64,000 bases of DNA from Vicinamibacterales bacterium (lineage in GTDB: Bacteria > Acidobacteriota > Vicinamibacteria > Vicinamibacterales > UBA8438), in the NCBI GenBank assembly GCA_958296065.1, contig CATQHX010000010.1, positions 62,001-126,000 of the forward strand. Direction: 5' to 3'. The stretch's first letter is position 1. The number at the start of each line of letters is the position of its first letter. Position numbers and translations under genes: made by a program. Positions 2,775-8,053 of this stretch are shown in pieces. The notes below the pieces were generated by a model that was not told where the DNA came from, did not search any database, and saw nothing but the letters and a program-made list of their open reading frames with translations.

Positions 2775-3039
2775 CGCGGTGGCTCCGTAGCCCGCGGCGT
2801 AAACGCCTGGTTGACCGGCGCGCAGGCGGGTATGTTCCGGCCGGACTCAGTCCGGCGCTCCGACGTAACCCGCCTTCTCAAGGTGCAGGATGATCTTCCT
2901 TCCCCGCAGACAGGTATGACCGCGTAAACAACCTTGTACTGTAGCACGCGGGTCAGCCGCGCCCCCTCGAAACCATTCCGGACGATCGGCCGTCCCGCCG
3001 ACGGTGCCGCAACGGCGCGCGGGGACATCGGCCTCCAGC
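2775..3039. other. Divergent intergenic region without a supported gene
   Basis: This non-coding stretch separates the DUF4202 gene from the cysteine leader. It contains a compact perfect hairpin, GCCGGAC-TCA-GTCCGGC, at 2840-2856. The hairpin has no T-run and lies where the DUF4202 transcript would begin, so it is more likely a 5' leader structure or protein-binding dyad than a terminator. No convincing ORF or RNA gene is seen. Confidence 0.4.
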
Positions 3040-3070
3040 TTGACGCGCGGCCGTGCTTACACGCTAGAAT
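3040..3070 (+). promoter_or_regulatory. Candidate promoter of the cysteine leader/siroheme operon
   Basis: TTGACG (3040-3045) and TAGAAT (3065-3070) resemble sigma70-type -35 and -10 boxes, separated by 19 bases, which is somewhat long. Transcription from here would start about 3077, so the leader ORF start at 3087/3090 would be close to the 5' end and the AGGAG at 3073-3077 would be at the very margin of the transcript. A promoter slightly further upstream is therefore also possible. The assignment rests only on hexamer similarity. Confidence 0.35.
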
Positions 3071-3089
3071 TCCAGGAGTAAGCACCGTG

Positions 3090-3191
3090 ATGACGATATT
3101 GTTGACCGTTTGCGCTTGTTGTTGCTGTTGTACGGGGTCCCGAGGGATCCCCCGCGCCGACGGTCTTACCGCGTTGCACGCCGCTACCTAG
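3090..3191 (+). CDS. Cysteine-rich leader peptide (attenuator ORF)
   Basis: A short ORF of 33 codons begins 'MTILLTVCACCCCCTG': six of the seven codons at 3111-3131 are Cys (TGC GCT TGT TGT TGC TGT TGT). Four of the six are TGT, which is rare in this G/C-ending genome, where neighbouring genes use TGC almost exclusively. Initiation could be at ATG 3090 or GTG 3087; an AGGAG at 3073-3077 supports either. The ORF ends at TAG 3189-3191, 32 bases before a strong intrinsic terminator. Leader peptides with runs of the regulated amino acid's codons are the sensors of transcription attenuators (trp, his, leu), and poly-cysteine leader ORFs are known upstream of sulfur genes in mycobacteria. Here it probably senses charged tRNA-Cys and controls the siroheme/sulfite reductase operon. 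Confidence 0.8.
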   Translation: MTILLTVCACCCCCTGSRGIPRADGLTALHAAT

Positions 3192-3256
3192 ACGAGACAG
3201 AGCAAGCAACGCGCGACACCAAGGCCCGGGGGGCGGACGCCCTCCGGGCTTTTTTT
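3133..3256 (+). promoter_or_regulatory. Cysteine-responsive transcription attenuator (alternative RNA pairings)
   Basis: Three pairings can be drawn in the leader RNA. First, GGGG-TCCC (3134-3141) can pair with GGGA-T-CCCC (3144-3152) directly after the Cys codons. Second, CCCCCGCGCC (3149-3158) is complementary to nine of ten bases of the terminator's 5' arm, GGCCCGGGGG (3223-3232), and would act as an antiterminator. Third is the terminator itself (3224-3256). A ribosome stalled on the Cys codons (3111-3131) would cover the first hairpin, free 3149-3158 and favour antitermination; a ribosome running to the stop would allow termination. A further 8-bp pairing, CGCGTTGC 3170-3177 with GCAACGCG 3206-3213, brackets the stop codon. 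The logic is that of classical amino-acid attenuators. Energies were not computed. Confidence 0.6.
3224..3256 (+). terminator. Intrinsic terminator of the cysteine attenuator
   Basis: An 11-bp stem GCCCGGGGGGC (3224-3234) / GCCCTCCGGGC (3239-3249), with one G-U wobble (3230:3243), closes a GGAC tetraloop and is followed by seven T residues (3250-3256). It is the clearest rho-independent terminator in the window, and it lies between a short leader ORF and the operon's structural genes rather than at an operon end, which is diagnostic of attenuation. Confidence 0.9.
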
Positions 3257-3317
3257 GTGCCCTTGCATGGTTAGTGGACCCTTGCGTGTCGCATCCCCCG
3301 CGAGAAGGAGACCACTC

Positions 3318-3595
3318 GTGACCGTCGAGACGCCGCAACGAGCCGATGCGCGGGTCGTCGAGTGGGACGCCAATCCGGGATCGCCAGGATCAACCCGCTC
3401 GCCGACCGGACCAGGCAGGACGTCTGGCGGCGCATCATCGAACACGACGTGCCGTACAATCCGCTGCATGATCTCGGGTATCCGAGCACCGGCCGCGGCC
3501 CGTGCACGAGCGCGGTGCCGCCGGACGAGGTCGACCGCGCGGGCCGGTGGCGGGGCAGCGCCAGGACGGAATGCGGACTGCACGGCCGCAGCCAG
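3318..3595 (+). pseudogene. cysH: Decayed adenylyl-sulfate (APS) reductase, cysH remnant
   Basis: A GTG at 3318 with an excellent AGAAGGAG ribosome site (3303-3310) starts a frame reading '...RADARVVEWDAN'. After 3374 homology moves to another frame: '(G)IARINPLADRTRQDVW', 'HDVPYNPLHDLGYPS', 'AGRW' and 'TECGLH'. This is the C-terminal third of APS/PAPS reductase (intact: INPLADWT, GYPSIGCAPC, AGRWWWE, KECGLH). About 150 N-terminal residues are missing, a one-base deletion lies near 3375, and the first Cys of the iron-sulfur CxxC is Arg (GRGPC), although the C-terminal catalytic Cys remains. The normal stop is gone, so the remnant reads in frame into the siroheme synthase gene at 3596. The GTG frame ends at 3620, overlapping the next start, and may still give translational coupling. 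It cannot encode a working reductase. Confidence 0.8.
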
Positions 3596-4201
3596 ATGTA
3601 CCTCTACCCCGCCTTTCTGAAGCTCCGCGGCCGGCAGGTGGTGGTGGTGGGCGCAGGACCCGTCGCCGCCTCGAAGCTGCGAGGTCTGCTCGACGCGGGG
3701 GCGAACGTCACCGTCGTGGCGCCGAAGTGGGTCGACGAAGCGGCCGCGGCGGACGTCACGCGGGTTGAACGCGAGTTCCGGCCGTCCGATCTGGACGGCG
3801 CGTGGCTGGTCGTGGCGGCGGCGACGCCGGCCGTCAATCGAGAGGTGGCGCAGGCGGCCGAGGCGCGTTGCGTTTTCGTCAACGCGGTCGACGACCCGTC
3901 CAACGCCAGCCTTTACTTGGGCGGCGTCCTGCACCGCTCCGGGGTGACCGTCGCCGTTTCCACCGACGGGCAGGCGCCGGCCCTGGCCGGGCTGCTGCGC
4001 GAGGCCCTCGACGCACTGCTGCCGCCCGACGAGCTCGAACGCTGGCTGTCCGAGGCCGCGCGGCTGCGCCGGCGGTGGCGGGCCGAGCAGGTGCCGATGG
4101 CAGCACGCCGTCCCGAACTGCTCGAGGCGCTGGTGAAGCTGTACACACGTGACGGAAGCCAGGCGGACCGGGGAGCGGAGACCGCGACCCGCGGAGCATG
4201 A
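3596..4201 (+). CDS. Precorrin-2 dehydrogenase / sirohydrochlorin ferrochelatase (CysG N-domain, Met8-like)
   Basis: The 201-residue protein starts 'MYLYPAFLKLRGRQVVVVGAG' with the Rossmann motif GAGPVAASK (about residues 18-26), then 'ANVTVVAP', 'LVVAAATPAVNREVAQAA' and 'FVNAVDDPSNASLYLGGVL', the standard siroheme synthase NAD-binding and active-site region including the catalytic Asp of 'VDDP'. The helical 'SVSTDGQAPALAGLLRE'-type segment ('AVSTDGQAPALAGLLREAL') follows. It oxidises precorrin-2 and inserts iron to make siroheme, the prosthetic group of the reductase encoded two genes downstream. There is no Shine-Dalgarno site at ATG 3596; translation is probably coupled to the cysH remnant, whose frame is continuous with it. 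The methyltransferase domain is a separate downstream gene. Confidence 0.85.
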   Translation: MYLYPAFLKLRGRQVVVVGAGPVAASKLRGLLDAGANVTVVAPKWVDEAAAADVTRVEREFRPSDLDGAWLVVAAATPAVNREVAQAAEARCVFVNAVDDPSNASLYLGGVLHRSGVTVAVSTDGQAPALAGLLREALDALLPPDELERWLSEAARLRRRWRAEQVPMAARRPELLEALVKLYTRDGSQADRGAETATRGA

Positions 4202-4205
4202 GTTC

Positions 4206-5081
4206 ATGACGTCCAGCATGAGGCCAACGCCACCCGCGGAACCCGGAGTTCGTGGCGAGACCCTGCGCCGCGGGTTACCGGGGTTCGTATCGCTGGTCGG
4301 TGCCGGTCCCGGCGACCCGGAACTGCTGACGCTCAAGGCGGCCCGGCGCCTCGCCGAGGCGGATCTGTTGCTGTACGACGGGCTCGTGCCGACGGAGATC
4401 ACGGCGCGGGCGACGCGGGCGCAGCACTTCTGTGTCAGCAAGCGGGCGGGGCGCCCATCGGTGGACCAGGAGACGATCCATCAGGTGATGGTCCGCGGCG
4501 CGCGGCGCGGCAAGCGTGTCGTACGGCTGAAGAACGGCGACCCGTTCCTGTTGGGGCGGGGCGGTGAGGAGGCCCTGGCCCTGCGCGCCGCGGGTATTCC
4601 GTTCGAGGTCATTCCGGGGATCACGGCGGCGGTCGCGGCCCCCGCGCTGGCGGGTATTCCGGTGACTCACCGCGGGCTCGCGGCCGGGTTCACGGTGGTC
4701 TCGGGGCATGCCCCGGCGGCGTTCGAGCCGATTCTGGGTGCGGTGGCGCCCGGATCGATGACCGTCATCGTGCTGATGGGCCTGCGGAACCGCGGGCGCG
4801 TCGCCGAGACGTTGCTGGGACGAGGCTGGCGCCCGCAAACGCCGGCGGCGATCGTGCTGGCCGCGTCGACACCCGAGATGCGGGTCTGGACGGGGCGACT
4901 CGACCAACTGGGAATCGCTCCCTTGGATGCTTCGGCCGGCGCACCTGGCACGATAGTCGTCGGCGAGGTGGCGTACCTGAGCACGCTGGTCGGCGGAACG
5001 CCGGCACGGACGCTCACCGCAGCCGCAGTCGCGCAGCCGGAGCGGACTCTCGAACGCGTGGGCAAACAAGGAAACGTGTGA
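4206..5081 (+). CDS. cobA: Uroporphyrinogen-III C-methyltransferase (SUMT)
   Basis: The 291-residue protein carries all SUMT signatures: 'FVSLVGAGPGDPELLTLKA' (about residues 28-46), 'ADLLLYDGLV', 'VVRLKNGDPFLLGRGGEE', 'FEVIPGITAAVAAPALAGIP' and 'VTHRG'. It transfers two methyl groups from S-adenosylmethionine to uroporphyrinogen III, giving precorrin-2 for the preceding dehydrogenase/ferrochelatase. ATG 4206 lies four bases after the preceding stop; a GTG at 4149 would add a charged, non-conserved extension. Together with the upstream gene it reconstitutes the functions of a split CysG. About 25 residues precede the fold and about 20 low-complexity residues follow it. Confidence 0.93.
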   Translation: MTSSMRPTPPAEPGVRGETLRRGLPGFVSLVGAGPGDPELLTLKAARRLAEADLLLYDGLVPTEITARATRAQHFCVSKRAGRPSVDQETIHQVMVRGARRGKRVVRLKNGDPFLLGRGGEEALALRAAGIPFEVIPGITAAVAAPALAGIPVTHRGLAAGFTVVSGHAPAAFEPILGAVAPGSMTVIVLMGLRNRGRVAETLLGRGWRPQTPAAIVLAASTPEMRVWTGRLDQLGIAPLDASAGAPGTIVVGEVAYLSTLVGGTPARTLTAAAVAQPERTLERVGKQGNV

Positions 5082-5082
5082 C

Positions 5083-7359
<2,277 letters not shown>

Positions 7360-7953
7360 ATGGCATACGAGGCAGCGGCGCTGCAGCGCTTCGGCCTGAA
7401 GCTGTTCGCGGATCCCGCGTCGGCGGGCGCTCCGAGCACGATGATTCCGGTCTTCCACCAGTGGATCCAGGAGCACGCCGTGCCCGGACTCCTGATCGAC
7501 GTGGCCGACTACACGCACCTCGTCGACGGCCCGAGCGTGCTGCTCGTGGCCCACGAGGCCAACTACGCGATCGACGAGACGGGGGGGCGTCCCGGCCTGT
7601 CGTACACCCGCAAGCAGCCGCTCGAAGGGACGTTCGAGCAGCGACTGGCTGCCGCGGCGGCGGCTCTGATTACCGCGGCCCGGCGCCTGGAGCAGGACAC
7701 CTCCCGCATGACCGGCGGCGGCATCACGTTCCCGGGGAACGAAATCGAGTTCGTGGCCAACGATCGCCTGGCCGCGCCGAAGAACGCCGACACCGAGCGC
7801 GCTCTACGACACGAGCTGGCAGGGTTCGGCGGCCGGCTTCTCGGAGGCGCCGACGTGGAGGTCGGGCCGCTGGACGACCCCAGCCGTCTCGGTTTCACCA
7901 TCAAGACGCGCGAGCCCGTTCCGCTCGAAACGCTGCTGTCCAGGGTAGAGTGA
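7360..7953 (+). CDS. Conserved-looking unknown protein coupled to the siroheme reductase
   Basis: The ATG directly abuts the reductase stop codon (no spacer), so the 197-residue product is almost certainly co-translated and functionally linked. It has an alternating alpha/beta pattern: 'IPVFHQWIQEHAVPGLLIDVADYTHLVDGPSVLLVAHEANY' split across two strands, a basic patch 'GRPGLSYTRKQPLEG', a long Ala-rich helix and a final 'LGFTIKTREPVPLETLL'. I do not recognise a named domain and see no metal-binding Cys/His cluster. Position suggests a role in electron delivery, assembly or regulation of the reductase, but this is inference from operon structure only. Confidence 0.75.
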   Translation: MAYEAAALQRFGLKLFADPASAGAPSTMIPVFHQWIQEHAVPGLLIDVADYTHLVDGPSVLLVAHEANYAIDETGGRPGLSYTRKQPLEGTFEQRLAAAAAALITAARRLEQDTSRMTGGGITFPGNEIEFVANDRLAAPKNADTERALRHELAGFGGRLLGGADVEVGPLDDPSRLGFTIKTREPVPLETLLSRVE

Positions 7954-7987
7954 AGTCGGAGCCCCGCGAGCGGCCCAGGGGAAACCG

Positions 7988-8053
7988 ATGCTGTCCAGCT
8001 TCACGATCAAGGACTTCAAGAGCTACCGCGAGGCTACCCTGAAGCTGGCCCGC
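7988..8053 (+). pseudogene. N-terminal stub of an AAA/SMC-like ATPase
   Basis: ATG 7988 opens 'MLSSFTIKDFKSYREATLKL', the exact style of the first strand and loop of RecF/SMC-like AAA ATPases ('...I.NFKSY..A.L.L'), which normally continues into the Walker A loop. Homology stops abruptly at about 8053, before any P-loop, at the point where an oppositely oriented ORF ends. This is a truncated remnant left by a deletion or rearrangement. It is not a functional gene. Confidence 0.6.

Follow-up and report, generated by a model that had tools for sequence, protein, structure and literature searches.

A conserved poly-cysteine leader with terminator and antiterminator as a predicted cysteine attenuator in Acidobacteriota

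The amino acids whose operons are usually listed as having terminator-type attenuators do not include cysteine. Actinobacterial cys leaders that lack terminators were predicted in 2005 (PMC1262725), and the polycysteine leaderless small ORFs of mycobacteria (Canestrari 2020) are reported to attenuate downstream translation (PMC9031893, PMC9094748). A terminator-type Cys attenuator, uORFC-8-2, has been proposed before cysS in Rhodobacterales (PMC8632094). A survey of premature terminators notes that hardly any predicted acidobacterial attenuators have associated functions (PMC2965389), and cysteine is not mentioned in the main text of two other surveys (PMC11109978, PMC6429828). We found no description of a poly-Cys leader combined with a terminator and antiterminator in the open-access papers examined, where absence is not proof. 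An initial annotation of the locus studied here had suggested that a terminator-based cysteine attenuator in an acidobacterium looks new. A terminator-type cysteine attenuator had, however, already been predicted as uORFC-8-2, and the element is not particular to this bacterium.

The locus lies in a 64,000-nucleotide stretch of a Vicinamibacterales contig, here called the window, in which a short ORF precedes a partly decayed sulfite reductase operon (Table 1). The ORF product, VMTILLTVCACCCCCTGSRGIPRADGLTALHAAT, begins with VMTILLTVCACCCCC and ends at a TAG stop codon (3189-3191). The initial annotation had reported six Cys codons in seven, four of them the rare TGT. The sequence agrees, Cys codons occupying 3111-3113 and 3117-3131, and TGT is indeed rare, making up 6 of the 51 Cys codons in eight window genes (6 TGT versus 45 TGC). 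When all frames were scanned this run was unique in the 64-kb window, and none arose when the whole window was shuffled 40 times with dinucleotides preserved. Relatives of the same genus have the ATG at 3090 in common with the window, not the GTG at 3087. Leaders of the family prefer TGT (77 of 113 codons, with 36 TGC), the opposite of the 6:45 ratio in window genes; this preference could slow decoding or reduce pairing of the Cys codons with other parts of the RNA. That TGT and TGC are exchanged while Cys is kept points to translation of these codons.

Table 1. Coordinates of the leader, its RNA segments and the downstream genes in the window.
Feature	Position	Strand	Remarks
Predicted sigma-70-type promoter, TTGACG-N19-TAGAAT	3040..3070	+	Relatives keep TTGACG / TAnAAT ahead of the leader
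AGGAG, possible Shine-Dalgarno of the leader ORF	3074..3078	+	Window sequence; not conserved
Leader ORF	3090..3191	+	33 codons plus stop; alternative start GTG 3087; start and Cys run kept in the family
Regulatory codons TGC GCT TGT TGT TGC TGT TGT	3111..3131	+	6 Cys of 7, 4 TGT
Segment 1	3134..3140	+	Pairs with 3145-3151 as 1:2 hairpin, -12.8 kcal/mol
Segment 2	3145..3158	+	Partner of segment 1, or of segment 3 (antiterminator)
Antiterminator hairpin extension	3159..3220	+	Contains conserved GACGGTC (3160-3166), distal partner near 3215-3220
Segment 3, terminator 5' arm	3221..3234	+	3223-3234 alternatively pairs with segment 2
Segment 4, terminator 3' arm (to 3252) and T7 tract (3250-3256)	3239..3256	+	
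cysH remnant, reduced to the C-terminal part (about 90 aa)	3323..3586	+	55% identity with L044 CysH; reading frame shared with cysG
cysG N-terminal domain (precorrin-2 dehydrogenase / siroheme synthase)	3598..4201	+	TIGR01470
Uroporphyrinogen-III C-methyltransferase (SUMT)	4149..5081	+	NF004790 and TIGR01469
Sulfite/nitrite reductase-family protein (NIR_SIR; NirA/sulfite-reductase family)	5083..7359	+	PF01077 and PF03460
Conserved protein, no Pfam or NCBIfam match	7360..7953	+	Directly after reductase

A simple promoter scan of the window returned no match at the leader because the spacer of the predicted promoter is 19 nt long. A -35 TTGAC with a spacer of 17-19 nt is present in each of the 22 family leaders examined, a set that includes the window's own leader. 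A Shine-Dalgarno-like motif is absent in 20 of these 22, and an in-frame start lies 6-9 nt past the -10 hexamer in 17. These two properties suggest that most family members probably have a leaderless leader ORF. Probably this does not extend to the window, in which the start lies 16-19 nt past the -10 hexamer (16-21 nt in its genus).

Beyond the stop codon, after about 30 bases, lies an intrinsic terminator (3221-3256) with a 14-bp stem (10 GC), a 4-nt loop, a folding energy of -28.9 kcal/mol and a T7 tract at 3250-3256. The initial annotation had given a distance of 32 bases, close to our value, and had correctly pointed to a GC-rich hairpin with T7, but the 11 bp that it assigned cover only part of the stem. 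Its reading as a terminator-based attenuator gains from a competing antiterminator that it had not mentioned and that is both present and conserved. In all 14 leaders that we folded, the 1:2 and 3:4 hairpins form, and the 2:3 antiterminator forms when the fold excludes segment 1 and the 3' arm of the terminator. With plentiful cysteine, the ribosome would pass the Cys codons and reach the stop codon, and segment 1 would pair with segment 2; segment 3 would then be free, the terminator would form and transcription would halt ahead of the operon. Under a shortage of Cys-tRNA, the ribosome would instead halt at the Cys codons and cover segment 1. Segments 2 and 3 would then build the long antiterminator hairpin, and RNA polymerase would continue into cysG, SUMT and sulfite reductase. 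We infer that the leader is translated, and that stalling and readthrough occur under cysteine shortage.

Folding of the first full alignment with RNAalifold gave a muddled structure in which the Cys codons paired with GACGGTC. The causes were a partial misalignment of the terminator and the inability of full-length folding to represent alternative states; the result still yielded a usable covariance model, R1. For single family members, the 2:3 duplex was often no better than those of base-shuffled sequences. This test is weak because GC-rich sequence pairs strongly with ease, and support for the antiterminator therefore rests on conservation. We replaced these low-power controls with column-shuffled alignments and with less GC-rich distant examples. 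Against column shuffles, RNAalifold returned z = -3.2 and -4.2 for five window-type leaders, -6.0 and -8.9 for 14 leaders of the other type, and -5.9 and -5.3 for all 22, and at most 1 of 60 shuffled alignments was as good as the real one. One position of the 2:3 helix carries a compensatory change (U-A in 12 leaders, C-G in 7, C-A in 3), and its segment-3 base still fits the terminator, as A-U or G-U. Many base pairs differ by G-U only, and true double changes are few. The GACGGTC motif within the antiterminator is conserved across both leader groups though the reading frames differ, so that the constraint there is on RNA and not on peptide.

The promoter, poly-Cys ORF and terminator form a block upstream of orthologous reductases in the genus and in most other genera of the family, and the spacing of ORF and terminator is fixed in 14 aligned loci. 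Looking for the same leader upstream of orthologous operons had been proposed as a check in the initial annotation, and here poly-Cys codons with a terminator were recovered in 27 of 28 family genomes, each with one strong R1 copy, and in many others of the order. The 28th genome, 77% complete, has an R1 match only at E = 0.1. In the order Vicinamibacterales, 77 of 162 genomes have R1 matches. From outside the family we examined 40 of these loci, mostly the best-ranked with a few lower-ranked ones picked by hand; a leader could be read in 37, always with a terminator and three or more Cys codons, and in 34 of these 37 it precedes cysD-cysN, cysG-SUMT-SIR, cysH or cysK. The R1 search was blind to gene content, and matches to which our script assigned no leader (L193, L195, L199, L204, L207, L208) were left uncounted. 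One locus (L202) has a three-Cys leader before cysK followed by JAB, ThiS and ThiF domains, and resembles a CysO/CysM-type cysteine route. Within the family, the leader is found with TSUP, DUF2061, cysH, cysG, SUMT and sulfite reductase genes. In a sample of the phylum, 19 of 396 genomes had R1 matches at 1e-4, mostly within Vicinamibacterales, as expected because R1 was trained on one family.

The genes beyond the terminator had been annotated as a siroheme/sulfite reductase operon, and we identified a siroheme synthase N-domain, SUMT and a NirA/sulfite-reductase family protein. The protein encoded at 7360-7953 follows sulfite reductase in nearly all family members and is probably on the same transcript. 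The terminator is not the 3' end of an upstream gene, as the nearest one (DUF4202) lies on the other strand. The first downstream ORF starts with the truncated C terminus of CysH (APS/PAPS reductase), and the operon is partly decayed in the window. The relative L031 has a reductase 93-94% identical to that of the window; positions 3038-3288 and 3328-8049 of the window align to 4750-5001 and 6250-11036 of L031, and between leader and operon the window is shorter by approximately 1.2 kb. The absent segment encodes a TauE/SafE sulfite exporter and most of cysH. A second member of the genus, L033, likewise has neither exporter nor cysH, and both L033 and the window genome retain the leader. Searching the entire genome for the PAPS-reductase domain, a search that takes in CysD as well, returned the remnant and two other matches without similarity to CysH or CysD of relatives, and thus no convincing CysH or CysD besides the remnant. 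The assembly seems to lack both proteins, and sulfate may therefore not be the sulfur source of this genome.

We consider it highly probable that the element is a ribosome-mediated transcription attenuator that senses tRNA-Cys charging, and very probably the operon would be switched on only at cysteine shortage. By every sequence criterion (leader ORF, Cys run, terminator, alternative helices, conservation and gene context) this is a conserved cysteine attenuator. Points against it are the ease of strong pairing in GC-rich sequence, the small number of true double changes and the partial decay of the operon in the window. The identical sensor codons ahead of cysteine genes, and a predicted leaderless start in most relatives as in mycobacteria, would also suit translational or Rho-dependent attenuation of the mycobacterial style, in which the leader ribosome governs translation of the next gene or access of Rho and the hairpin is incidental. 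We consider this improbable, as the terminator is kept with a T6-T8 tract throughout the family, the competing antiterminator is conserved, and the conserved structure stops at the T tract, upstream of the start of the next gene.

The probability is slighter still that the ORF encodes a functional small Cys-rich protein, which might for example bind metals or thiols, and has a terminator of its own but no tie to the operon. Its Cys-rich peptide, promoter and terminator would fit such a protein; however, only the Cys run is kept and the remaining peptide varies among relatives, even in reading frame, the antiterminator shows covariation, and the gene context is consistently one of cysteine supply despite differences in the first gene. 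Least likely of all is a riboswitch or T-box in place of a leader read by ribosomes. A structured 5' leader with a terminator ahead of sulfur genes would be in keeping with either, but no Rfam family matched at the gathering threshold, in relatives or in the window's own locus (L059), the weak matches in the window being far below threshold and on the opposite strand, and the Cys run is conserved with TGT/TGC exchange, as translated codons would be.

We scanned 84,980 genomes, blind to genes, for the pattern TGTTGYTGYTGY - N92-122 - CGGGCTTTTTT. This returned 61 stretches, which include the window's family. A fair share of the 61 look like chance, with Cys codons inside long ORFs or without a start codon. 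The same design appeared ahead of cysteine genes in Planctomycetota, Actinomycetota, Bacteroidota and Bacillota. Leaders precede cysD in Acidobacteriota (L090, L093, L096, L136) and Acidimicrobiia (L137), cysH in L104, L141 and a member of the Planctomycetaceae (L098), cysG in Acidimicrobiia (L146), sulfite reductase in Saprospiraceae (L101, L102) and cysK-cysE in Oribacterium (L150). In eight leaders (L097, L110, L134, L098, L136, L093, L099, L147) no more than 1 of 300 shuffles equalled the 2:3 duplex; the duplex was not significant against shuffles in L141, L102, L101, L137 and L146. The significant duplexes begin 6-15 nt beyond the last Cys codon, roughly where the front of a stalled ribosome would lie.

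In three Lachnospiraceae leaders (L097, L110, L134), four Cys codons follow one another and the antiterminator is a perfect 12-bp duplex. These leaders lie before genes for an ABC transporter ATPase and a family-3 solute-binding protein that may form a cystine transporter, which suggests that cysteine or cystine uptake is under attenuation there. In the two Saprospiraceae loci (L101:6850-7253 and L102, minus strand, about 1060-1460), two serial poly-Cys leader ORFs with 7 and then 8-9 Cys codons, each with its own terminator, stand before sulfite reductase as apparent tandem cysteine attenuators. Five-Cys leaders in Flavobacteriales (L094, L099, L147) precede an FAD-oxidoreductase-like protein and an ATP-grasp-like protein that is uncharacterised, which hints at a cysteine-linked pathway of yet unknown nature.

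On balance, we think it likely that poly-Cys leaders with intrinsic terminators are a widespread and so far unrecognised system of cysteine control: a regulon-level switch in Acidobacteriota (cysDN, cysH, cysG-SUMT-SIR, cysK) that also occurs in Planctomycetota, Actinomycetota, Bacteroidota and Bacillota, is often leaderless, and is arranged in tandem in Saprospiraceae. A complete conserved switch in phyla whose regulation is little studied would tie sulfur assimilation to the charging of tRNA-Cys in a way that can be tested directly. With its signature, cysteine-regulated genes, unannotated ones included, can be found in uncultured bacteria.

At the sequence level, the element resembles the trp, his and leu attenuators: a short leader ORF contains a run of codons for the end product, conserved 1:2, 2:3 and 3:4 helices are mutually exclusive, and an intrinsic terminator with a U tract separates the leader from a biosynthetic operon, here of genes that supply cysteine. 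It differs from them in that cysteine would be sensed and sulfur assimilation genes controlled, in the apparent leader start without a Shine-Dalgarno sequence in most relatives, and in an antiterminator made of a single long hairpin (about 80-95 nt). With uORFC-8-2 it shares a leader ORF with Cys codons, a terminal hairpin with U run and a proposed ribosome-mediated transcription attenuation. That element differs in sequence and phylum, and has a pair of tandem Cys codons and occurs before cysS in Rhodobacterales only, whereas the present leaders mostly have 4-8 Cys codons before sulfate assimilation genes; the window's has six, before a siroheme/sulfite reductase operon in Acidobacteriota. 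Consecutive Cys codons in a short ORF before cysteine operons are common to our leaders and those of mycobacteria and other actinobacteria. The mycobacterial ORFs are leaderless, and a leaderless start is likely in most family members here, though probably not in the window. Those leaders have no identifiable terminator and a reported translational action, whereas here terminator and antiterminator are conserved. The window element joins the sensor of the mycobacterial poly-Cys leaders to the switch of the trp and his attenuators.
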